A stretch of 51,881 bases of DNA from a virus. The notes beneath the pieces are model-generated. The model saw only the letters and a list, made by a program, of their open reading frames with translations, did no database searches and was not told where the DNA came from. This document shows positions 38,238-50,649 of the stretch, piece after piece. The stretch's first letter is position 1. Each line of letters begins with the position of its first letter. Position numbers and translations under genes: made by a program. The stretch lies in IMG/VR virus record IMGVR_UViG_3300043446_001974, positions 1-51,881 of that record; one strand, 5' to 3'.

Positions 38238-38494
38238 AATATCTAACATTACTACTAGCAATGCCACTAGCCGGTTGCATACAAACTTTTAAACTGAATC
38301 CGCCCTGGCCACAGGTACCTGATCCGGCTATGCTAAAGCAGTGTGAAGTGTTAAAAACTATAGACACACAAGATGTAAGCATGGCAGAACTTGTAGACCT
38401 AGTACAACAAAACTATCAGCTATATCACCTTTGTAAACTAAGTAACGATAGCTGGGTTAAGTGGTATAATACTCACTGGAAAAAGGACAAGTAA
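38234..38494 (+). CDS. Outer-membrane lipoprotein, o-spanin candidate
   Basis: An 86-residue lipoprotein. The signal peptide MKYLTLLLAMPLAGC ends in a clear lipobox (LAGC, lipidated Cys15). A Pro-rich stretch (LNPPWPQVPDPAML) follows, as in Rz1, then a helix with VQQNYQLYHLCKLSNDSW and a Trp/Tyr-rich end. It would anchor in the outer membrane and bind the coiled coil of the i-spanin. It overlaps that gene by four bases and the endolysin by one (TAATG), a compact lysis unit. Compared with lambda the two spanin genes are adjacent, not nested. Confidence 0.68.
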   Translation: MKYLTLLLAMPLAGCIQTFKLNPPWPQVPDPAMLKQCEVLKTIDTQDVSMAELVDLVQQNYQLYHLCKLSNDSWVKWYNTHWKKDK

Positions 38495-39108
38495 TGGAAT
38501 TAACACTCGACCAACTTAAGCAGGTTATACCAAAAAATCAATATGTTAGCTATTGGCACCACGCACTAGAACAACTATTACCACAATATGAAATAAATAC
38601 ACCAGATCGCATAGCTGCTTTTTTAGCGCAGTGTGCGCATGAATCGGGTGGATTTGTGTTTATCAAAGAAAATCTTAACTATAAGTGGCAAAGCTTACGT
38701 AAAGTATTTGCCAAGTATTTTCCAACGGATGCATTGGCGCAACAATATGAAAAGCAACCGCAAAAAATTGCTAATCGTGTATATGCAAGCCGCATGGGCA
38801 ATGGGCCTGAAGAATCGGGTGATGGTTGGCGTTTTTGTGGGCGTGGATTAATACAGGTAACTGGGCGTGATAACTACAGCTGGTTCGCCGCTAGCCTACA
38901 GATTAGCCCGGAAGAAGCGTCCGAGTATATGGAAACCTTTGAAGGTGCAGCACAAAGTGCTTGCTGGTTTTGGGAATCAAATAATCTCAATCAGTGGGCG
39001 GATAAGCAGGATATTTTAACACTAACTAAGCGTATTAATGGCGGTACGATTGGTTTAGAGGATAGGAAAAAACATTACGAACATTGTTTACATGTCTTAG
39101 CACATTAA
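38494..39108 (+). CDS. Endolysin, glycoside hydrolase family 19
   Basis: A 204-residue peptidoglycan glycosidase (chitinase-like fold). The catalytic acid Glu50 lies in AHESGGF and the second Glu59 in ENLNY. The ANRVYASRMGN and GWRFCGRGLIQVTGRDNY stretches are the usual GH19 landmarks. No signal peptide or membrane segment is visible, so it needs a holin to reach the wall. Length fits the single-domain GH19 endolysins of Gram-negative phages. The start overlaps the o-spanin stop. Function assignment is firm. Confidence 0.92.
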   Translation: MELTLDQLKQVIPKNQYVSYWHHALEQLLPQYEINTPDRIAAFLAQCAHESGGFVFIKENLNYKWQSLRKVFAKYFPTDALAQQYEKQPQKIANRVYASRMGNGPEESGDGWRFCGRGLIQVTGRDNYSWFAASLQISPEEASEYMETFEGAAQSACWFWESNNLNQWADKQDILTLTKRINGGTIGLEDRKKHYEHCLHVLAH

Positions 39109-39132: not shown

Positions 39133-40599
39133 ATGCGTAAAATATTAGCCTTTTTAGTACTGCTCGCAGCTACAGCTAGCTGGGCACAAAACACTAGTAC
39201 ACAGTCTACCACGAGTGGAACAACTACTAGCACTACCAACCCTATCAACCAAGGTGCTTATGACAGCAAAAGCCTTGTAGATACCAACAGTACTAGCAAT
39301 AGTACAAGCAGCGTTACTACCAATAATGTTTCAACCAGTACTAGTAATAATATTAATACTAGTACAGTAAATAGTACTAGCACAAATACTAATAATAATG
39401 TTAATACTAGTACTGCAACTAGCACTAATGTTAATACAAATAATAATATACAAAGTGGTACAGTTACTAATAATAACAACAATGTTATGAGTGGTGCTGT
39501 AACTTATACAAATAATAATATAAATAGTGGCACCCAAACATTTAATAATAACAATACAAGTACTGCTACTAATACTAACATTAATCAAAATACAAGTTCC
39601 AGCACTAGCACTGCAACAAATATTAATACAAATAATAATATTAACACTGGTACTATGACATACAATAATAATAACTTGAGTACAACTAATAACGTTAATA
39701 CAAATAATAATATTAATAGTGGCACTCAAACGTTTAATAATAACAATGTTTCTACAAGTTCATCTGTTTCCCAAAATATTAATACTAATAATTCTACTAG
39801 TGTAAACACTAACAATAATATTAATACTGGAACAATGAACTATAACAACAATAATGTAAATAATAGTACCAGTGTTAACACTAATAACAATATTAATACT
39901 GGTACTATGACCTATAATAACAATAACACCAACTCTACCACAAGTACTAATCAAAATACAAACTATAATGTGAGTGTTACAGATAATAAGAATACTAATG
40001 TTAATAACAGCACATCAAACAATACTAACATGAATATTCAAACTGGTGATATGACAAATCGTAATATCAACCAAACTACTGCAACAACAAATAATGTTAA
40101 TGTAAACCAAAGCTCTAGCTATAGTAACAGCAATAGTAATAGTACACAAGTTATTAGTACAGATAATATAAACAAAAATGTTAATGAAACTAATATTACG
40201 CAGCGTGTAATTCAGCCACCGCCTACTGCAATAGCACCAGCAATGATGAGTGGAGGTGGACAGGATTTGTGTACTACAGGTTCGTCAGGTGCAGTACAAA
40301 CACAGATTGTAGGTATGTCACTAGGCGGTACACAACGTGACTTAAACTGCGAAAGACTAAAGTTATCAAAAACCTTATTTGACATGGGCATGAAAGTAGC
40401 AGCAGTAGCTACAATGTGTCAAGACAGGCGAGTGTTTGAGGCAATGATGGCAGCAGGAACTCCTTGTCCTTACGAAGGTCAGATTGGTGATAAAGCTCGT
40501 GAGCTGTGGGCAACAAATCCAGGTAAAATACCACAATACGACTATAGAACAGAAACTGAGGTGCCTAAAGCACATAAACATGCAAGTTGGTTTCGATGA
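39133..40599 (+). CDS. Secreted Asn/Thr/Ser-repeat protein with conserved C-terminal domain
   Basis: A 488-residue exported protein. A signal peptide (MRKILAFLVLLAATASWA) precedes ~330 residues made almost only of Asn, Thr and Ser, with at least five copies of a VNTNNNINTGTMTYNNNN-like unit (~90-270). The C-terminal ~120 residues are ordinary protein: a Pro-rich hinge (VIQPPPTAIAPAMM), Cys-containing QDLCTTGSSGAVQTQ, DLNCERLKLSKTLFDMGMK and a CPYEGQIGDKARELW end. The repeats suggest a beta-solenoid or amyloid-like rod carrying a folded cap. CAGGAG precedes ATG 39133. It overlaps the next gene by ATGA, so the two probably work together. Function unknown; location in the periplasm or outside is inferred from the signal peptide. 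Confidence 0.6.
   Translation: MRKILAFLVLLAATASWAQNTSTQSTTSGTTTSTTNPINQGAYDSKSLVDTNSTSNSTSSVTTNNVSTSTSNNINTSTVNSTSTNTNNNVNTSTATSTNVNTNNNIQSGTVTNNNNNVMSGAVTYTNNNINSGTQTFNNNNTSTATNTNINQNTSSSTSTATNINTNNNINTGTMTYNNNNLSTTNNVNTNNNINSGTQTFNNNNVSTSSSVSQNINTNNSTSVNTNNNINTGTMNYNNNNVNNSTSVNTNNNINTGTMTYNNNNTNSTTSTNQNTNYNVSVTDNKNTNVNNSTSNNTNMNIQTGDMTNRNINQTTATTNNVNVNQSSSYSNSNSNSTQVISTDNINKNVNETNITQRVIQPPPTAIAPAMMSGGGQDLCTTGSSGAVQTQIVGMSLGGTQRDLNCERLKLSKTLFDMGMKVAAVATMCQDRRVFEAMMAAGTPCPYEGQIGDKARELWATNPGKIPQYDYRTETEVPKAHKHASWFR
39400..40090 (+). repeat. Asn-rich coding repeats
   Basis: Imperfect repeats of AATAATAAT/AACAACAAT-type codons encode the Asn ladder. Several units share the order ACT/AAT..AATAATATTAATACTGG. 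Codons for Asn alternate AAT and AAC, which avoids long pure runs. Confidence 0.7.
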
Positions 40600-43028
40600 A
40601 AGATAAGTTAATAGTTTGGTCTATACTAGCTACATTAATGATTATAGCTATACTGCCTGGATTTTCCTATGGCCAAACGTCACCCAACACGCCCAGTGGT
40701 TATAGCATTGACAGTGTCACTGGTAATCTTATACTCAACGGGTCGGTGACATCGGCCACAGGTTGGTCCAGCACCACCGGTAGTCCAAGTTGGACACCAA
40801 ATGGTGCACCATTGGGAAGTTTTGATCCTGCCGATGGATACACCTTTAGTTATATTCCAGAATCACTGGGACAGGCAGGAATTAGTCTTGGCAGTTTTAA
40901 TCATGGATACTTAAATTCTAATGCTGTGTTTGTCACAGGATTTAGCTATGGGTTAACTTATCGGTTTCCTTGTGCTAATAGCATAGGCACTAACTGTGAT
41001 GGCACTAGTAAAACTGCTGCTCCGGCCAATCCCACTCAAGACAACTTAAGAGTAGAAGTAGGATATTATCCTAGCACAGGTAGCCCTACATTTTATGTTC
41101 ATCAACTTGGATTAAAAAATATAAATGATGGTAATCCTGCTTATAATCCAAATTGGCAAACACTAGCAGAAACAGTCACCTTTGCAGGTGCTAAACCATT
41201 GGCTCAGGCTGGCTCTGTGAACTATGAAATCATAGGTAGTGATGCCGGGGGTTGGGCTTGTTTGAATGGCCAGTGTTATGGTCCGCAAGTTAAAAATGCC
41301 TACATAAGGGCAAATTACAGTGTGGATCCCTGTATTCTTAACACTGCCTTTAGTCCCAACTGTCCAGGATTTAATAATGTTATTCAAGGAGTTCAAAGTC
41401 CCGTATATTGGCATAGTTACAACATAGCGCAACGTTTACCCCACATAGGAGGGGGTGTTCAACTGCATGGATTTGATTATGGATTTAACTGGTCAAACTT
41501 TGGCTCTTGCTATAACACATTTTTGTTTTGGTGTACCGATTGGCGTACAGATGGTGGCGGTACAGTAAACTTTAGGGTAACTGACAGCGCAAATAACATT
41601 CTGTATTCTGATAGCAGATACAGAGAAGGCAATAATGCCAGTGGTAGTTATAGTAATAGATTTCTTTTTACAGAAACTAGAAATAGTTTAGACATGGGCA
41701 ACGTAAGTTGGTGGGTTAGTGGAAGTTGGAATAACTTTAGTGCAGCAGGTTGGACTAGACCTATATGGACTCCGGACCCTTGTTATTTCAATGGATTGTA
41801 TAGTCCTAATTGTACAAACTTTAAAGAAACTTTAACAGAAGTTATTGCAGACATTAAAGCACAGCAAGAAAAGATTGCAGCTTTAAATTCTTCAAGTACA
41901 TTAGTAACACCTACAGGGTCAGTTACTGTAACATTAAATGATGTTAATTCTATCAATCCATCAGTGACTGTTACTACTAATAACGAGACAACACAACAAA
42001 ACAATAGGTCTGGTGTATCACAAACTCAAACTTTAGTATCTACAGAAATACCTGCAGTAGTTACAAGAAATGCTAATCAAAATGCAAGATCATTATTACA
42101 AGCACAACGTGTTATTGTTGAAGCTAATCAAACAGCTAGTTCATCTGTAAAAGAAGCTGAAAGTATTCCAAATAATAATGTTCAAACAAATATAGCTTCA
42201 AGTATGGGTACACAAGAAAATGAACAATCAAGTACAGCAAGTGTTCAAGTAAATAGAATAAACCAATCTAATATTACAAGTTCTATTGCTCAGCGATTTA
42301 CTCAATCCACTCAACAAATAGCAACTACTAATAGAGAAGAGTTACCTATACAAACAATATCGGCTACGTCCATAACCATAGAATCAGCAGCACAAATACT
42401 AATGCCAAATGCTATGTTTAAATCAGTAGAACTAGCAGTTGCTTTACCAAACTTACCGCCTGTAAATCCAACAAGAATTCAAGAAGAAAAACAAGAACAA
42501 TCACTTACATTTAGTAGTCAGGAACAACCATCAGTATTTGTACAACCAATTGCACCACCAGATATACAACAGGCATATGCCGCACCTTCTATCGTTACAC
42601 TACCACTACAAGCACCAACAAATCTAATAGAAAGTCCGGTGCAAATACTATCTCAACCAGTTGCACCAGTGGCAGTAACAGAAGCGGAACAGCCGCAACA
42701 ACAAATAAACTTTACTGCTGATAAGACCAATCCTATTAGTGATATTATTGAAAGTAAACCTGTAGTTGCAGAGCAAAGAACAGAAGCTAAGTTACCAGCA
42801 GTAAATGCTAGTGCTCAAAATAATGATGTTGCTGGCGGTGTTAGCATTAACAGTATAGCAGTTGTACCCGTAGGTTTCAACACCTATACCATAGCATTAG
42901 CAGACGCTAGTTTTTATCAGCCCAAGGAAATTTATCGTAATCAACGTACCATAGACAACAGACGCGCACTGCAAAACTTACGCAGTGATCAGCTGCACGA
43001 GCAGATGATGAGCCAACAGTGGAGGTAG
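40596..43028 (+). CDS. Large secreted protein, unknown function
   Basis: About 810 residues. ATG 40596 overlaps the stop of the Asn-repeat gene (ATGA); the in-frame TTG at 40587 is a less likely start. A signal peptide or anchor (LIVWSILATLMIIAILPGFSYG) is followed by a folded, Trp/Gly/Cys-rich region (~20-410) with sandwich-like strands and paired CILNTAFSPNCPGF and CYFNGLYSPNCTNF motifs about 165 residues apart. Residues ~415-790 are Gln/Ser/Thr/Ala-rich and low in structure. The end (FYQPKEIYRNQRTIDNRRALQNLR) is a short conserved-looking helix. I do not recognise the family. The repeated C-x(3-7)-SPNC motif suggests disulphides and thus export. It may form one surface structure with the repeat protein before it. 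Confidence 0.55.
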   Translation: MKDKLIVWSILATLMIIAILPGFSYGQTSPNTPSGYSIDSVTGNLILNGSVTSATGWSSTTGSPSWTPNGAPLGSFDPADGYTFSYIPESLGQAGISLGSFNHGYLNSNAVFVTGFSYGLTYRFPCANSIGTNCDGTSKTAAPANPTQDNLRVEVGYYPSTGSPTFYVHQLGLKNINDGNPAYNPNWQTLAETVTFAGAKPLAQAGSVNYEIIGSDAGGWACLNGQCYGPQVKNAYIRANYSVDPCILNTAFSPNCPGFNNVIQGVQSPVYWHSYNIAQRLPHIGGGVQLHGFDYGFNWSNFGSCYNTFLFWCTDWRTDGGGTVNFRVTDSANNILYSDSRYREGNNASGSYSNRFLFTETRNSLDMGNVSWWVSGSWNNFSAAGWTRPIWTPDPCYFNGLYSPNCTNFKETLTEVIADIKAQQEKIAALNSSSTLVTPTGSVTVTLNDVNSINPSVTVTTNNETTQQNNRSGVSQTQTLVSTEIPAVVTRNANQNARSLLQAQRVIVEANQTASSSVKEAESIPNNNVQTNIASSMGTQENEQSSTASVQVNRINQSNITSSIAQRFTQSTQQIATTNREELPIQTISATSITIESAAQILMPNAMFKSVELAVALPNLPPVNPTRIQEEKQEQSLTFSSQEQPSVFVQPIAPPDIQQAYAAPSIVTLPLQAPTNLIESPVQILSQPVAPVAVTEAEQPQQQINFTADKTNPISDIIESKPVVAEQRTEAKLPAVNASAQNNDVAGGVSINSIAVVPVGFNTYTIALADASFYQPKEIYRNQRTIDNRRALQNLRSDQLHEQMMSQQWR

Positions 43029-43791: not shown

Positions 43792-44010
43792 ATGCGAATA
43801 TTATTATTAACATTACTATTAACTAGTTGCAGTGATATGTACAGGTATCCTTGCCAAAATCCGGATAACTGGGAACATAAGGTTTGCAAGCGACCATATT
43901 GTAGTGCAAACGGAACTTGTCCTGAAGATTTAACACCATATGAAAAAGACCTTGCAACAAACACTAATAAACCCTCAACCTCAGTTCAAGCACCAAAGGA
44001 TTGTAAATGA
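43792..44010 (+). CDS. Small Cys-rich lipoprotein
   Basis: A 72-residue lipoprotein. MRILLLTLLLTSC ends in a lipobox-like LTSC with Cys13 as the lipidated residue. The mature part holds five more cysteines and a MYRYPCQNPDNWEHKVCKRPYCSANGTC-type pattern (Cys spacing compact, here shortened), suggesting disulphides, then a disordered tail. Related-looking lipoproteins occur in uncultured aquatic phages. It overlaps the next gene by ATGA. It could be a second o-spanin-like or superinfection-exclusion protein. Confidence 0.58.
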   Translation: MRILLLTLLLTSCSDMYRYPCQNPDNWEHKVCKRPYCSANGTCPEDLTPYEKDLATNTNKPSTSVQAPKDCK

Positions 44011-44459
44011 TTAAAGATCTATGGGAAGGCCCGCGCTATACTGAAGACGAGCTAATGGCAAGGCTTAAATTTTTTATAGGTATGGTACTAGCACTAACAC
44101 TATTTGGTATCGTATTTGTAGTACTCTATAGCCTAATATTTGTAACACAGCCTATGAATGGTATTAGCCCTGTAGATAACAAGTTTTTTGAATTGATTAT
44201 TCCTATTGCTACTTTTTTAACCGGTACTCTTAGTGGTATTATGTTAGCCAGTGGTGACAAGGATGCTCAAAAAGCAGCCTTACAAGCTGCAAATAAAGGT
44301 TGGGATAAGACGCCAAGCCCACCACCTATGTCTACTCCTATGGTTACCCTAGGTAACAACGGTAGTATAAGCATAGCACCATCCACTGGTGGTAATCAAG
44401 TAACTGTTGGGTTTGGCGGTAAAGCCGCACCACCACAACAACCATTTCCAGAACTATAA
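44007..44459 (+). CDS. Holin-like protein with two membrane segments
   Basis: A 150-residue protein with a charged N-terminus, a first hydrophobic segment (FFIGMVLALTLFGIVFVVLYSLIFV, ~21-46), a short loop and a second (FFELIIPIATFLTGTLSGIMLAS, ~60-82), then a soluble Pro/Gly-rich tail. Two close membrane helices with a polar tail match class II holins and several phage membrane proteins. It is the best holin candidate in the window since the endolysin lacks its own export signal, though it is 5 kb from the endolysin. Overlaps the lipoprotein gene by four bases. Confidence 0.5.
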   Translation: MIKDLWEGPRYTEDELMARLKFFIGMVLALTLFGIVFVVLYSLIFVTQPMNGISPVDNKFFELIIPIATFLTGTLSGIMLASGDKDAQKAALQAANKGWDKTPSPPPMSTPMVTLGNNGSISIAPSTGGNQVTVGFGGKAAPPQQPFPEL

Positions 44460-44794: not shown

Positions 44795-45478
44795 ATGGCC
44801 AAAAGCAGTGCTAAAAAATTACGCAGTGTACAACCTAATAATGTTGTTCCCCTGGAAATAGGCTTTGAAAACGTAAAACCACTAAACTACATTCAAGGCG
44901 AATATTTACGGGCCATTCATGAAAATAGTATAATCTTTGGTATAGGTAGCGCAGGCACTGGCAAGACCTATATAGCAGCAACATATGCGGCTGGTGAATT
45001 ATTTCACCGCCGCGTTAAAAAGATTATATTAACTAGACCTAACATAGAAACTGGACGAGGATTAGGATTTCTACCAGGTACACTAGAAGAAAAATATGCA
45101 CCATACCTAGAACCATTTGACCAAATCTTTACCAATAGCCTAGGACGCGGATTCTATGAATATGCACTAAATAAAAATCAAATAATACCTAAACCGCTAG
45201 GATTTATGCGTGGAACTACTTTTGAAGATTGCGTAGTCTTACTCGACGAAGCACAAAATGCTACTAGGGATGAGATGAAAATGATCTTGTCACGCATTGG
45301 AAAAAATTGTAAAATAATAGTTAGTGGCGATCAAGAGCAAAGCGATATTAGCAACAGCGGACTTCTAGACGCCACCCAACGACTTGAGGGTATTGAGGAT
45401 ATTAGTGTTGTTCGTTTTCGTGATGAAGATATTGTTCGCAGTAAACTATGTAAACAAATAATTTTAGCATATAAGTAA
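44795..45478 (+). CDS. phoH: PhoH-like ATPase
   Basis: A 227-residue P-loop ATPase of the PhoH family, often carried by aquatic phages. Walker A is GSAGTGKT (51-58), followed by the family's ILTRPNIETGRGLGFLPG (79-95), Walker B VVLLDEAQN (147-155) and the sensor-like IIVSGDQEQSD. It is the single-domain, short form without the PIN domain of bacterial PhoH2. The biochemical role in phages (RNA metabolism or phosphate stress are proposed) is not settled. AGGAT precedes ATG 44795. It is followed by a small membrane protein and the cyclase in the same direction. Confidence 0.9.
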   Translation: MAKSSAKKLRSVQPNNVVPLEIGFENVKPLNYIQGEYLRAIHENSIIFGIGSAGTGKTYIAATYAAGELFHRRVKKIILTRPNIETGRGLGFLPGTLEEKYAPYLEPFDQIFTNSLGRGFYEYALNKNQIIPKPLGFMRGTTFEDCVVLLDEAQNATRDEMKMILSRIGKNCKIIVSGDQEQSDISNSGLLDATQRLEGIEDISVVRFRDEDIVRSKLCKQIILAYK

Positions 45479-45488
45479 AGGAACAGCT

Positions 45489-45677
45489 ATGGAAACTGTT
45501 ACAGATGCCGTAGGTAAATTATGGTTTTTAGGTGCTGGAATAGTTGCCATAGCTGCCTATGCTGTTACAATCAAAGTTAGATTAGACTACTTAGAAAAAA
45601 ATTATGACCGACAAATTACTGCACTTTGGGATCAAGTTAATAAACTCGTAAAAGACGTAAAACAGCATGGAAACTAA
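45489..45677 (+). CDS. Small membrane protein upstream of the cyclase
   Basis: A 62-residue protein with one membrane segment (LWFLGAGIVAIAAYAVTIKV, ~11-30) and a short helix (RLDYLEKNYDRQITALWDQVNKL). AGGAACAGCT lies before ATG 45489. It overlaps the cyclase gene by 11 bases, suggesting translational coupling. The helix could tether a partner to the membrane. No family recognised. Confidence 0.5.
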   Translation: METVTDAVGKLWFLGAGIVAIAAYAVTIKVRLDYLEKNYDRQITALWDQVNKLVKDVKQHGN

Positions 45678-46896
45678 GTTAGCCACAATAATTTGCAGTG
45701 ATGTTATTGGTTACAGCACACAAATGCAGCACGATGAAGCAGGTACATTGGCTAAACTAGACGCTTGTCGTGCAGTTATTGACCCACTAATAGGGGTGTA
45801 TAAAGGCAGATTATTTAACACAGGCGGAGATAGTGTACTCATAGAGTTTGCCAGTGCAGTTGATGCTGTGCGCTTTGGCACTGAAATGCAGCATAGAATA
45901 CAAAAGCTAAATAATGGATTACGTTGGCGTGTAGGTATGCATGTAGGTGAAGTATGGATTTATGGTACTAACTTAATGGGTGACGCAGTTAATCTAGCTG
46001 CTCGTACTGAAAGCTTAGCTGACTATGGCGGAGTAACAGTTACTGACGCCGTATACAGACTAGTTAATTCAAAAATAAAAGACCTTAAATTTATTAGTCG
46101 CGGTGTTCAAGAATTTAAGAATGTAGAGCCTATGGAGATCTGGAGTGTTGATATACCAGGTTGCGAGCCTAATCCACACTTAAATAAAACAACAAAAAAG
46201 CCTACGACAACTACTAAAAGTCATAATGAGTTAATTAGTGCAGTAGTTAATGATCAAGCAGCAAGAAATCGTACATTAAATGATGCTATAACTTTTAAAC
46301 ATGATGGTAGGTATGATGCGGCCACACGAGTATTAATGTGGAGAACCTATAAAGGTGACCAAAAAGCACTAGATGAATTAGTAAACCTACTACAAAAAGA
46401 CGCTGTGCCTCAGCAACTTAAACCATACGTTTATGCTGTTTTTAGAGAAATACACCAAAAAGTAACTAGCGATGTTGCACTAAAAATAGTAGAGCTAGTT
46501 AAGTCAGACAGTCACAGTCTAGCTATGCAATTTTTGCGACATGCTGCTAGGGTTAATGAACTGGCAAGTCAAAAATTGGCTGCTATGGTTTTTGACGACC
46601 CACTAAGCAGTCAAAGTGAGATAGAAGGTGTTATAGGAGATCTCAAAGAAAGTGCTATGAAACGTAACGTGCCTGCTATGTTAAATCTAGCAAAATACTA
46701 TACACAAACAGGTGATAAGAAAAACGCATTTCGTTGGTTATACGCAGCCCGTGCACAACATAATAGTGAGGCACAGAAATTATTAGAAGAACTTAACAAG
46801 ACTATAAGTAGGAGTGATTTTAATAATTATAAAACTGATGCAGATGCACTAGTTGACGAAATCAAGTTTATTGATGATAATCGTATGAGACAATAG
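45667..46896 (+). CDS. Class III nucleotidyl cyclase with C-terminal helical-repeat domain
   Basis: A 409-residue protein. Residues 1-165 are a class III cyclase domain of the type common in Proteobacteria: metal ligands Asp12 (ICSDVIGYS) and Asp55 (NTGGDSVLIEF), transition-state Asn109 and Arg113 (DAVNLAARTE). It should therefore be catalytically competent as a dimer. At the two positions that select adenine (Lys and Asp in adenylyl cyclases) it has Asn51 and Asn102, so the product cannot be named from sequence; similar residues occur, from memory, in a bacterial subfamily. Residues ~190-409 are helical repeats, the clearest unit being YYTQTGDKKNAFRWLYAA, Sel1-like. No membrane segment. Likely coupled to the small membrane protein before it. 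Cyclases are very unusual in phages. Confidence 0.82.
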   Translation: METKLATIICSDVIGYSTQMQHDEAGTLAKLDACRAVIDPLIGVYKGRLFNTGGDSVLIEFASAVDAVRFGTEMQHRIQKLNNGLRWRVGMHVGEVWIYGTNLMGDAVNLAARTESLADYGGVTVTDAVYRLVNSKIKDLKFISRGVQEFKNVEPMEIWSVDIPGCEPNPHLNKTTKKPTTTTKSHNELISAVVNDQAARNRTLNDAITFKHDGRYDAATRVLMWRTYKGDQKALDELVNLLQKDAVPQQLKPYVYAVFREIHQKVTSDVALKIVELVKSDSHSLAMQFLRHAARVNELASQKLAAMVFDDPLSSQSEIEGVIGDLKESAMKRNVPAMLNLAKYYTQTGDKKNAFRWLYAARAQHNSEAQKLLEELNKTISRSDFNNYKTDADALVDEIKFIDDNRMRQ

Positions 46897-46904
46897 GAAT
46901 TGTA

Positions 46905-47540
46905 ATGGCTAAAACATATAAACCAACAAGTGGTATGGCTAGTGCTGCCAGGCGAGCACTAAAATGGAAAAGCGAAGGAAAAGCTGGTGGTACACTAGTT
47001 GGCTTAGCCAGAGCTAATCAACTAAAAGATCGTGACCCACTAAGTGCAAGTGTAGTCCTACGCATGTACAGCTTTTTTAGTCGTCATGAGGTAGATAAAC
47101 GTGCTACTGGTTTTAACAGCGGTGAAGAAGGATTTCCCAGCAAAGGCCGTGTCGCTTGGGATCTTTGGGGTGGGGATGGTGGTTATAGCTGGAGTAGTGC
47201 TAAACGCAATCAAATCATGCGTGATCGTGAAGGTAAAGCACTACAATTAGTAAAGCTAACTGAAAAAGGTATGATCAGTGAACCATTGCGTATGATGGCA
47301 GCACAAGTGCTGGAAGATTATGCTAATCAAAATATCAGCGAAGACCTAGAAGCATTTGGTCAGTTTATGTATCATGCGGAACTGTTGCGTAACGATCACT
47401 TAGATATTTACCTGTTAGATCTATACCGTGTAGAACAACCTTATCGTGATATACTAGTTGAAGTATTTCACGAATTAGACAATATGCACGATCCTAATAA
47501 TGTAGACGAAGAAGATAGTAACCTGGATACACCAGTATAA
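46905..47540 (+). CDS. Conserved phage protein with SRHEVDK / GRVAWDLWGGD motif
   Basis: A 211-residue protein. The first half holds MASAARRALKWKSEGKAGG, then YSFFSRHEVDKRATGFNSGE and GRVAWDLWGGDGGYSW, a motif block I have seen in phage proteins of unknown function, some next to structural or protease genes. The acidic, invariant-looking His/Glu/Asp residues could form a metal or catalytic site. The second half is helical (EPLRMMAAQVLEDYA, FGQFMYHAELLRND). AGGAATTGTA precedes ATG 46905. No membrane segment. Function not known to me. Confidence 0.6.
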   Translation: MAKTYKPTSGMASAARRALKWKSEGKAGGTLVGLARANQLKDRDPLSASVVLRMYSFFSRHEVDKRATGFNSGEEGFPSKGRVAWDLWGGDGGYSWSSAKRNQIMRDREGKALQLVKLTEKGMISEPLRMMAAQVLEDYANQNISEDLEAFGQFMYHAELLRNDHLDIYLLDLYRVEQPYRDILVEVFHELDNMHDPNNVDEEDSNLDTPV

Positions 47541-47588: not shown

Positions 47589-48389
47589 ATGAGTAGTGAA
47601 ATTAAAGATACAAGTTTGGTCATACAAACTGTATACAAACCAGAAGAAAATCTTGATTATATTAAAGATTGGTTAGTACATCATACAGCTATTGGGGTCA
47701 AACACTTTTATCTTTATGATAACGGTGGTGCGCATAATTATCCGGATCCTGATTACAATGTACCTTTACATTTAAACAAACACGGTACAGAATTTAAATA
47801 TACCGTAGAACAGGCCAGAGAACTTGAAGCAAAAATTCTTAGGAATTTTCCAGTAACTAAAATTATGTGGCAAAATAGAGATGCTAATGGTCAATTAATG
47901 TACAATCAACCAGAATCAATTGTACATTTTAAAAATATAGTAAATACTGGCTTGTGTGCTTTTATTGATATTGATGAATTTATTATCAAACGAGAAGATT
48001 TTAGGCCTTGTAGACTATATCAAAGAAAGTTTAAATCTCGAGTTTATTATAATAGTGTGTATGATTGTCGCGATGTGTGGGACATTGAAGATGCTAGTAA
48101 ATGGGGGCCAAAAGTAATTTTAGATATGGCTAATTTTCCTATTTTTACTCCAGGCTTACACGCACATGACATACATTTTAGATATTTAGATTTGCCTATA
48201 TCACAATCGTGGTTTAATCATTACAACCACACACTAAAAACACATTGGTATTTGTTGAATGTACAAAAAAATGACCACAATTTAGGTCCAATGATACAAA
48301 ATATTAAAGATACTACTGATACTACAGATATAGAAAAACATTTTAATTCTATATTTTGCCAAATAAATGATACAGGACTTATTAATTGA
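47589..48389 (+). CDS. Glycosyltransferase, GT92/GT2-like
   Basis: A 266-residue enzyme. The opening (SLVIQTVYKPEENLDYIKDWLVHHTAIGV, here shortened to IQTVYKPEENLDYIKDWL) and HFYLYDNGG are the start of the DUF23/GT92-like family; the metal site is Asp127/Asp129 in AFIDIDEFI. A HDIHFRYLDL segment with several His and a WFNHYNH segment follow, as in that family. No Shine-Dalgarno sequence is visible before ATG 47589. It ends in a four-base overlap (TTGA) with the next GT gene. Confidence 0.75.
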   Translation: MSSEIKDTSLVIQTVYKPEENLDYIKDWLVHHTAIGVKHFYLYDNGGAHNYPDPDYNVPLHLNKHGTEFKYTVEQARELEAKILRNFPVTKIMWQNRDANGQLMYNQPESIVHFKNIVNTGLCAFIDIDEFIIKREDFRPCRLYQRKFKSRVYYNSVYDCRDVWDIEDASKWGPKVILDMANFPIFTPGLHAHDIHFRYLDLPISQSWFNHYNHTLKTHWYLLNVQKNDHNLGPMIQNIKDTTDTTDIEKHFNSIFCQINDTGLIN

Positions 48390-49165
48390 AAGAAATAGCT
48401 AACTTTTTCTGGCATGGCGATTTAACTCTGTATGAGTATAAATGTATTGAGTCGTTTGTTAAACATAACTTTATTGTTAATGTTTGGTCTTATTCTGATT
48501 TAGAATTGCCTGCTGGTGCTAACTTATGTAATGCTGAAGAAATATTACCCAAAGATCATTTAACTAAATATAAACAAAAACATTTTTTAGACGTTAATAC
48601 ACCTGATGGAGTAGAATATACTAGTTTGGCAGCATTTTCTGATGCATTTAGATTTACTTTACTAAATATACAACCTGGTTGGTGGTTTGATTGTGATGTT
48701 TTTTGTTTAAAAGATCAAAATAATTTTAGCGAATTAAAAACCAATAAAAACATAGTTGCAGGCTTGATGTATAATTCTAAAGATAATGTATTTGACTGTG
48801 GTTGTGGAGTAATTTATTTTAAGGACCAAACAGTTAGTCAATTATTTTATGATGAATTACAAGCAAGGTGTATACAAAACAATTACATTTTTTCTGGCTG
48901 GGCCCATATTGGACCACATTTAATACATACTGTAATTAAAGAAAATAACTTTGTTAAAGAACTTTTTCCCGAAGAATATTTTTATGCGATAACTTGGACA
49001 GATTTAGATTTAATTATTAATCCTGCTCGTATTTTAGAAGCAAAAGAACAAATAAAAAACGCATATTGCCTTCACCTGTGGAATAGCCAACTATCACAAG
49101 TTTATAATATAAAACATTCCCGACCTGAAGACAATCTTCTAGCGGAACTTTTCTTTAAAAATTAA
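48386..49165 (+). CDS. Glycosyltransferase with DXD motif (capsule type)
   Basis: A 259-residue enzyme starting at TTG 48386. IANFFWHGDLTLYEYKCIESF at the N-terminus (WHG-x-x-L), AAFSDAFRFTLL and PGWWFDCDVFCLK with Asp102/Asp104 match the Gly_transf_sug / capsular polysaccharide family. A short C-rich stretch (FDCGCGVIYF) and a late HLWNSQ match the family's acceptor region. The rare start overlapping the previous stop suggests coupled translation. No membrane segment. Confidence 0.75.
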   Translation: MKEIANFFWHGDLTLYEYKCIESFVKHNFIVNVWSYSDLELPAGANLCNAEEILPKDHLTKYKQKHFLDVNTPDGVEYTSLAAFSDAFRFTLLNIQPGWWFDCDVFCLKDQNNFSELKTNKNIVAGLMYNSKDNVFDCGCGVIYFKDQTVSQLFYDELQARCIQNNYIFSGWAHIGPHLIHTVIKENNFVKELFPEEYFYAITWTDLDLIINPARILEAKEQIKNAYCLHLWNSQLSQVYNIKHSRPEDNLLAELFFKN

Positions 49166-49183
49166 TAAATAACAATAAATATA

Positions 49184-50032
49184 ATGAAATTTGATACTAA
49201 AAAGATTTTAATCACAGGTAGTTCGGGTTATATTGGCTCTCATTTAACAAAAATATTAATAGATAATAATAATATAACGGTTGATGGTTTAGATAACCGA
49301 CAACCTTTAATTCCAGTAACTAATTTTTTTAATCAGAACATAATAGAAGATACAAATTGGAATATTAATGAAGAGTATGATTGTGTTATCCATCTTGCAG
49401 CAGAGGTTTCTGTTGGAAGAAGTGTGGAAACACCTCTATTATATTATAAAACAAATATTTTAGGAACACTAAATGTTCTTAAAAAAATAAAAACCAAAAG
49501 ATTAGTTATAGCATCGACTGGTGCGGCAGACGGATTAAAAAGTCCTTATGGAATAAGTAAACGCGCCATGGAAGATATTGTTTTTGAATATTGTAAAGAC
49601 AGCAATTTACCATTTACTATCTTTAGATTTTATAATGTTATAGGTAGTGATAATATTCAACCTACAAATCCAGATGGTTTATTTGCTTCATTAATTCAAG
49701 CAACAAAAACCGGAAAATTTATAATTTTTGGTAATGATTATAACACTATTGATGGAACTTGTATCCGTGATTATTCACATGTTAACGAAATATGTAATGC
49801 CATTATACAAGCTATTTACGAATCTACAAATAAAGTTGAAAATTTAGGGCACGGCATTGGAACAAGTGTTAAAGAAATTGTAAAATTATTTAAAAAGGTT
49901 AATAAATCTAATTTTACAATTATATATGGTCCAAGACGCAACGGAGATATAGAAGTCAGCGTTTTAGAAAATCCGTCAAGATTTATGAAAAAAATGTATT
50001 CAATGGAAGAACTTTTAAAGGTAAAATTGTGA
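49184..50032 (+). CDS. NAD-dependent sugar epimerase/dehydratase (extended SDR)
   Basis: A 282-residue nucleotide-sugar enzyme. The Rossmann motif ITGSSGYIGSH (Gly12, Gly15, Gly18), YDCVIHLAAEVSVGRSVE, and the catalytic SPYGISK with Tyr122 and Lys126 after a Ser/Thr pair at 111-112 identify the UDP-glucose 4-epimerase-like group. It would make the activated sugar used by the two upstream transferases. The C-terminal half (ENLGHGIGTSVKEIVKLF, GPRRNGDIEVSV) matches galE-type enzymes, but it is ~50 residues shorter than typical GalE, so the exact reaction is open. No Shine-Dalgarno before ATG 49184; four-base overlap with the next gene. Confidence 0.8.
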   Translation: MKFDTKKILITGSSGYIGSHLTKILIDNNNITVDGLDNRQPLIPVTNFFNQNIIEDTNWNINEEYDCVIHLAAEVSVGRSVETPLLYYKTNILGTLNVLKKIKTKRLVIASTGAADGLKSPYGISKRAMEDIVFEYCKDSNLPFTIFRFYNVIGSDNIQPTNPDGLFASLIQATKTGKFIIFGNDYNTIDGTCIRDYSHVNEICNAIIQAIYESTNKVENLGHGIGTSVKEIVKLFKKVNKSNFTIIYGPRRNGDIEVSVLENPSRFMKKMYSMEELLKVKL

Positions 50033-50649
50033 AAAATGTATTAAAACAAACTTGGTGGGACGATAATTTAAATTCTAAAATGGATACGTTTTTGAATTGG
50101 ATTGGATCATCTGATGCCGAATCTAAGGTTTATTTTAGAAATTTTTTAAAAACTAATAAAATTACTTTTGATAAATGTTTAGACGTTGGTTGTGGGCCAG
50201 CAACTGAATTTTTTGGTTTTAAAAATGATAACATCAACATAGAATATACAGGCGTTGATTCAAGTTTAGTGCTTAACGAGATTAATATTAAAAAAAGTAT
50301 TCCAATGATTCAGGCAGAAGGACATTCAATTCCTGTTGATAATAATTCCTATGATTTAGTGTTTTCAAGACACGTATTAGAGCATCAGTTAGCATTTGAG
50401 CCTATTTTAGAAGAAATGATTCGAGTTTCTTCAAATTTAGCAACACACATATTTTTTATAAAACCAACTGATCTTCCTCAAGAATTTGTTGGGATAGAAT
50501 TGCAACAAGAGAATTTGTACCACAATAGATATAACATTAAAGATATTGAAAATTTTTTAATGTCTAATAAAAAAGTTAAGAGCTTTGAGTGGAGAGAAAT
50601 TAACGAGTTAGAAAATATTTTACTGGTATGGGTTAAAAATGGTGGATAA
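50029..50649 (+). CDS. SAM-dependent methyltransferase
   Basis: A 206-residue class I methyltransferase starting at GTG 50029. Motif I is CLDVGCGPATEFFGF (Asp52, Gly54, Gly56), an acidic YTGVDSS strand follows, and YDLVFSRHVLEHQ is the usual motif of the methyltransferase-11 type. As the last gene of a sugar cassette it probably methylates a sugar or the glycan, though a small-molecule target cannot be excluded. It overlaps the epimerase by GTGA. A short remnant-like frame follows. Confidence 0.8.
   Translation: MKNVLKQTWWDDNLNSKMDTFLNWIGSSDAESKVYFRNFLKTNKITFDKCLDVGCGPATEFFGFKNDNINIEYTGVDSSLVLNEINIKKSIPMIQAEGHSIPVDNNSYDLVFSRHVLEHQLAFEPILEEMIRVSSNLATHIFFIKPTDLPQEFVGIELQQENLYHNRYNIKDIENFLMSNKKVKSFEWREINELENILLVWVKNGG

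Follow-up and report, generated by a model that had tools for sequence, protein, structure and literature searches.

The cyclase gene and its surroundings

The window, that is the whole stretch of 51,881 nucleotides that was analysed, is a virus record with head, tail and endolysin genes. On its plus strand, at 45667..46896, an open reading frame of 409 aa with an ATG start encodes a class III nucleotidyl cyclase fused to a Sel1-like domain. The start of this gene is overlapped by 11 nt by the end of the w62 gene (45489..45677), which encodes a 62-aa protein with one transmembrane segment. The PhoH-like ATPase that lies upstream of w62 in window-type phages is found at 44795..45478 (PF02562, E 5e-67) and w211, the phage protein directly 3' of the cyclase in these phages (phrog_2859), at 46905..47540. 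Further upstream are the endolysin (38494..39108; phrog_181, E 5e-76), the small predicted lipoprotein w72 (43792..44010), whose lipobox was read by eye and which occurs near the cyclase in 27 loci, and the small membrane protein w150 that is paired with w72 (44007..44459; phrog_25359). It is possible that w72 serves as an outer-membrane spanin. All these genes are located on the plus strand.

Between the endolysin and w217 (39133-43028) two secreted-looking proteins of 488 and 813 aa are encoded, which have N-terminal signal-like segments and Asn/Thr/Ser-rich repeats. The first is conserved in 13 of the cyclase loci and the second in 16; both are surface- or amyloid-like by composition only. 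Four sugar genes (GT92-like, Gb3-synthase-like, an epimerase and a methyltransferase) occupy 47589-50649, between w211 and ribonucleotide reductase. As the reductase follows almost directly after w211 in the contigs L003, L014 and L016, the sugar genes of the window look like an inserted glycan cassette.

In the preliminary description of this DNA the open reading frame was presented as a phage-encoded class III cyclase with intact catalytic residues, Asn at both base-selecting positions and a fused Sel1-like helical-repeat domain. These readings were borne out. The protein matched PF00211 with 32.7 bits (E 7e-8), above the cut-off of 21.9. Its catalytic domain, delimited by residue alignment and structural match, comprises residues 1-164 (45667..46158). 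In the alignment the metal-binding Asp12 (codon at 45700-45702) and Asp55 (45829-45831) and the transition-state residues Asn109 (45991-45993) and Arg113 (46003-46005) are all present. The positions that are Lys and Asp in adenylyl cyclases are taken by Asn51 (45817-45819) and Asn102 (45970-45972), i.e. the canonical pair is absent. The structure model of the whole protein had a pLDDT of 89, and its catalytic half (model residues 1-164) has the cyclase fold, superposing on Ma1120, 3mr7 and Rv1900c with Z 24-25 and an rmsd of 1.6-1.9. Rv1900c was also the top Foldseek match of the model. A linker at about residues 173-182, disordered in the AlphaFold model, is followed by the C-terminal alpha-helical domain (residues 185-409; 46219..46893), which was delimited with AlphaFold models and Foldseek. 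Modelled alone, this half was predicted to be an alpha-helical repeat (pLDDT 92), and its top Foldseek matches were mostly Sel1-repeat proteins, the best with an E of 1.1e-3. 'Sel1-like' would seem a reasonable name for the domain, although a marginal one by score.

Conservation, phylogeny and phage backbones

Three scans of IMG/VR yielded about 50 further distinct uncultured phage contigs with full or partial orthologues of the cyclase. The viruses that carry the window-type enzyme are mostly from freshwater. No orthologue was found by tblastn among 50,697 named phage records with the window cyclase as query, and with a deep relative as query the named phages gave distant class III matches only. 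Conservation was assessed in an alignment of 45 sequences, 44 from phages and one from the bacterial L060, which are 30-95% identical to the window cyclase. D12, N51, D55, N109 and R113 are invariant in all 45, and N102 is conserved in at least 90% of them. The start codon is conserved among the orthologues and dN/dS amounts to 0.03-0.18 in both the cyclase and the C-terminal domain, which indicates strong purifying selection. Together these two observations rule out a chance reading frame or a gene in decay. From the conservation of its catalytic residues it is very likely that the protein is a catalytically active class III cyclase, as had been expected earlier, and by the rule of its family it would work as a head-to-tail homodimer. 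The loss of the canonical base-selecting pair would also agree with a catalytically silent protein that is kept for its helical domain as a scaffold or decoy. However, given the invariant metal and transition-state residues, and a cyclase domain that is under as strong constraint as the C-terminal domain, such a protein is highly improbable.

In a quick tree all window-type phage cyclases formed one phage-only clade (46 rows, SH-aLRT 99) that falls within the alphaproteobacterial cyclases. Its deeper position is uncertain, as the branches are long and the tree search was a quick one. The virus-labelled singletons L192-L198 were not counted as members of the phage clade: their cyclases fall with the bacterial ones, and they may be host DNA. 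One of these, L194, encodes at ~5998 a class III cyclase of 264 aa with Asp/Arg at the two base-selecting positions as well as a cyclase-like open reading frame of 1121 aa. Among the distinct virus-derived cyclase domains, Asn/Asn was found in 44 and Asn/Asp in 5. The phage members with Asn/Asp are L190 and a subclade with lysozyme-type cassettes.

The clade is distributed over different phage backbones. T4-type gp23 was present in seven cyclase records. The window itself encodes, besides a tape-measure protein and central tail fibre, a head protein related to those of large siphoviruses; this head protein was found in none of the other cyclase records, though the region may be missing from most of them. 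A third type combines tail-spike-like genes with the lysozyme cassette. The T7-type portal (PF12236) gave no match anywhere, the positive controls being likewise silent. The presence of one cyclase clade in such unlike backbones implies transfer between phages. L030 (399,796 bases, with gp23, terminase and cyclase) is either a very large T4-like phage or an assembly artefact, and in the T4-like members L028 and L008 coproporphyrinogen-oxidase-like (293 aa) and carbamoyltransferase-like (486 aa) genes, named by sequence reading, are situated near the cyclase.

The lysis-gene neighbourhood

In 35 loci the cyclase is accompanied by w62, in three arrangements. The small gene lies upstream of the cyclase, overlapping or abutting it; or the two are convergent and 6 nt or about 200 nt apart; or w62 is found some 700 nt upstream, separated from the cyclase by two membrane-protein genes. 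A separate w62 scan revealed that in many cyclase-less phages w62 adjoins tm160, a 160-aa membrane protein, and a phage lysozyme (PF00959, E 5e-27). The cyclase was present in 31 of the 79 w62 neighbourhoods, some of which are cut by contig ends. No match of w62 was found in named phages or in Pfam, and it possibly represents an unrecognised holin-like family of lysis cassettes. In L233-L280 the members of this family are 55-62 aa long, have one transmembrane segment and are very conserved.

In L257 and L280 the genes are arranged as w62-hol66-tm160-lysozyme-p1180, and tm160 borders directly on lysozyme. L038, L039 and L048 have kept this order, except that the cyclase has its place between the latter two and overlaps the lysozyme start. 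A comparison of the cyclase-bearing with the cyclase-free type showed 97% identity for tm160 and 82% for lysozyme. This is a clean gain or loss of the cyclase within a lysis cassette. When a strict set of lysis-type genes was considered (w62, tm160, lysozyme and endolysin), one of these was at most five genes away from the cyclase in 33 of 49 loci. The T4-like members have other small membrane genes (tm95 and tm71) near the cyclase instead, and the deepest members with full flanks (L182, L184, L186 and L190) have no lysis neighbour. The 95-aa membrane protein tm95, which takes the place of w62 in the T4-like members, was not classed as a lysis protein, as it has no detectable homology to w62. 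Promoter-like and terminator-like sites around the cyclase gene were no more frequent than in shuffled sequences.

The position beside lysis genes implies that the cyclase is probably made late in infection. In several groups its strand is opposite to that of the lysis neighbours, and consequently it may have its own timing. Unrelated accessory genes are also commonly found in lysis cassettes. The cyclase could be a moron near lysis genes with a role unrelated to lysis, e.g. superinfection exclusion or metabolic reprogramming via the CRP of the host. Its accessory presence at one site, the frequent occurrence of the cyclase alone on the opposite strand and its spread over unlike backbones are in line with such a moron, whereas rearrangements have left its place beside w62 or lysozyme unchanged, and two groups show an overlap with the lysozyme or w62 gene. 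The kept position and the overlaps suggest coordinated expression, and a role unrelated to lysis is regarded as possible, if on the unlikely side. A late role via host receptors or lysis physiology is plausible from the gene position. A stricter version of this, in which a cyclic-nucleotide signal times or gates lysis, the cyclase and w62 are carried as a module between unlike phages and lysis is second-messenger-dependent, appears quite doubtful.

The product of the cyclase and its relation to known systems

The nearest cellular relatives are alphaproteobacterial cyclases that are about 43-46% identical over the catalytic domain. They were retrieved in an alignment-based genome scan, whereas a single-sequence scan gave no bacterial relative. 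The base-selecting pair in 108 of these bacterial relatives is Lys/Asp in 60, Asn/Asp in 22, Gly/Asn in 6 and Asn/Asn in 2, and altogether 24 of the 108 have Asn at the Lys position. Both positions thus drift in the bacterial relatives, which makes Asn/Asn unusual but not unique. Aligned with Rv1900c, N51 corresponds to the Asn in the NTAGDG motif of that enzyme, which we take to be N342; this residue is reportedly dispensable for adenylyl cyclase activity. No biochemically tested Asn/Asn cyclase, and with it no proven cAMP-maker of this kind, was found. The published curli-linked phage adenylate cyclases make a cAMP-type product the simplest guess, and the product is likely to be a purine cyclic nucleotide, mainly cAMP.

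As no tested precedent of Asn/Asn was found, cGMP, pyrimidine or mixed products could also be formed. If the enzyme made mainly cGMP or several cNMPs, host signalling would be altered by a less specific signal. The non-canonical residues at both base-selecting positions fit this, and Rv1900c, which has Asn at the Lys position, possesses some guanylyl side activity. However, guanylyl cyclases typically have Glu at the Lys position (PMC4215837), where the window cyclase has N51, and no cGMP-binding protein is encoded. A mainly cGMP or mixed product is considered unlikely.

The Asn/Asn pair had also been connected with Pycsar defence, in which cyclases of this fold make cCMP or cUMP. This part of the preliminary description is not supported. 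The nearest bacterial relatives often have Asn at the Lys position and some have Asn/Asn, and the phage clade includes Asn/Asp members whose gene surroundings are of a like kind. The PADLOC PycC models gave only a partial match to the window cyclase (17.5 bits, residues 70-138). Since the non-Pycsar cyclases tested scored higher (3mr7 34-37 bits, two rhizobial-type cyclases 29-33 and a curli-type phage cyclase 90), this weak match looks generic. The pyrimidine-selecting residues were mapped by their spacing from the metal-binding Asps for two PycC clades, E and D (PMC11224242). The triad F100/R142/Q144 of the clade-E EaPycC is C10/N51/G53 in the window cyclase and the triad F60/K104/F109 of the clade-D AnPycC is C10/G53/L58, without a single residue match. 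None of 22 phage records, with sizes up to 400 kb, contained the cNMP-binding domain PF00027 while the controls were positive, although the records may be fragments and a diverged receptor could escape this search. An Apyc1-type metallo-beta-lactamase fold (PF12706) was found in none of 19 phage records. No PycC was among the 50 chains listed by VIA-align, which by itself excludes nothing. Production of cCMP or cUMP, by which the Pycsar system of the host would be flooded or mimicked, can appeal to a pair that is unlike the signatures of both adenylyl (Lys/Asp) and guanylyl cyclases (Glu/x) and to the weak PycC match. In addition to the replaced triads and the higher scores of the non-Pycsar cyclases, the similar gene setting of the Asn/Asp sister phages argues against it, and flooding a host system that triggers death or dormancy would harm the phage. 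Such a function is very unlikely. The other roles proposed in the preliminary description, that of a decoy or the exclusion of rival phages, are conceivable.

The explanation that we prefer, with evenly balanced confidence, is an active cyclase of a phage-only family that makes mostly cAMP and is a late, lysis-side accessory acting on host receptors or lysis physiology. The family would be derived from alphaproteobacterial Sel1/TPR-linked cyclases and be kept as an accessory gene beside the lysis genes. In view of the absence of a recognisable phage-encoded cyclic-nucleotide receptor, the purine cyclic nucleotide, chiefly cAMP, should act on receptors of the host (CRP-family or similar). Alternatively, the Sel1-like domain might tie the cyclase to the membrane or to a lysis partner such as w62. 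Either way late host physiology or the timing of lysis would be altered.

So far, the phage adenylate cyclases on record belong to curli modules of marine phages, and Wittmers-type pelagiphage work describes them as partners of the phage curli (T8SS) modules (PMC9599517). A phage cyclase as such is less new for that reason, but the window-type enzymes constitute a second, separate clade that is widespread in uncultured phages. Its presence among lysis genes raises the question whether a cyclic-nucleotide signal is involved in ending the infection or in steering CRP-type regulation of the host. The clade is also a natural experiment on what two Asn residues at the base-selecting positions do to cyclase specificity.

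The two kinds of phage cyclase occur together in the estuarine contigs L182, L184 and L186, on the same strand. The second cyclase has 684 aa, a CHASE2-type sensor region and, as read, the canonical Lys/Asp pair (phrog_35576). In L182 and L184 (~3.8-7.2 kb) it is immediately followed by the window-type Asn/Asn cyclase, and in L186 (~3.1-7.2 kb) two small open reading frames lie in between. CsgG was found in these contigs only (the three sister records G013-G015) and not in the window; PstS was seen in L184. Relatives of the 684-aa cyclase are located at the end of the curli genes in Pelagibacter phage HTVC008M and Methylophilales phage Melnitz. The curli-linked cyclases of these phages and of pelagipodophages (PMC9599517) resemble the window cyclase in being phage-encoded class III enzymes of likely alphaproteobacterial origin that are exchanged between phage morphotypes. 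They differ in their N-terminal CHASE2-type sensor with transmembrane segments, whereas the catalytic domain of the window cyclase begins at residue 1, in their Lys/Asp pair (read in L182) as opposed to N51/N102, and in their curli neighbourhood. In the quick tree they formed a distant, separate branch.

The PycC of Pycsar has the class III cyclase fold in common with the window cyclase, which has other base-selecting residues, a weak profile match and no cNMP-binding effector as a partner. Rv1900c (LipJ of M. tuberculosis; 1ybt, 1ybu), a published adenylyl cyclase, shares the Asn at the Lys position but differs in the Asp at its second position, in a His that replaces the transition-state Asn, and in being fused to an alpha/beta-hydrolase. 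The alphaproteobacterial cyclase-TPR/Sel1 proteins (Microvirga, Bradyrhizobium and others), with the NTAGDS motif and 3mr7 as solved relative, have a helical-repeat C-terminus like the window cyclase, and many of them likewise carry Asn in place of the Lys. Their second position is mostly Asp instead of Asn102, their C-terminal regions are longer and different, and their genes are chromosomal or on plasmids.
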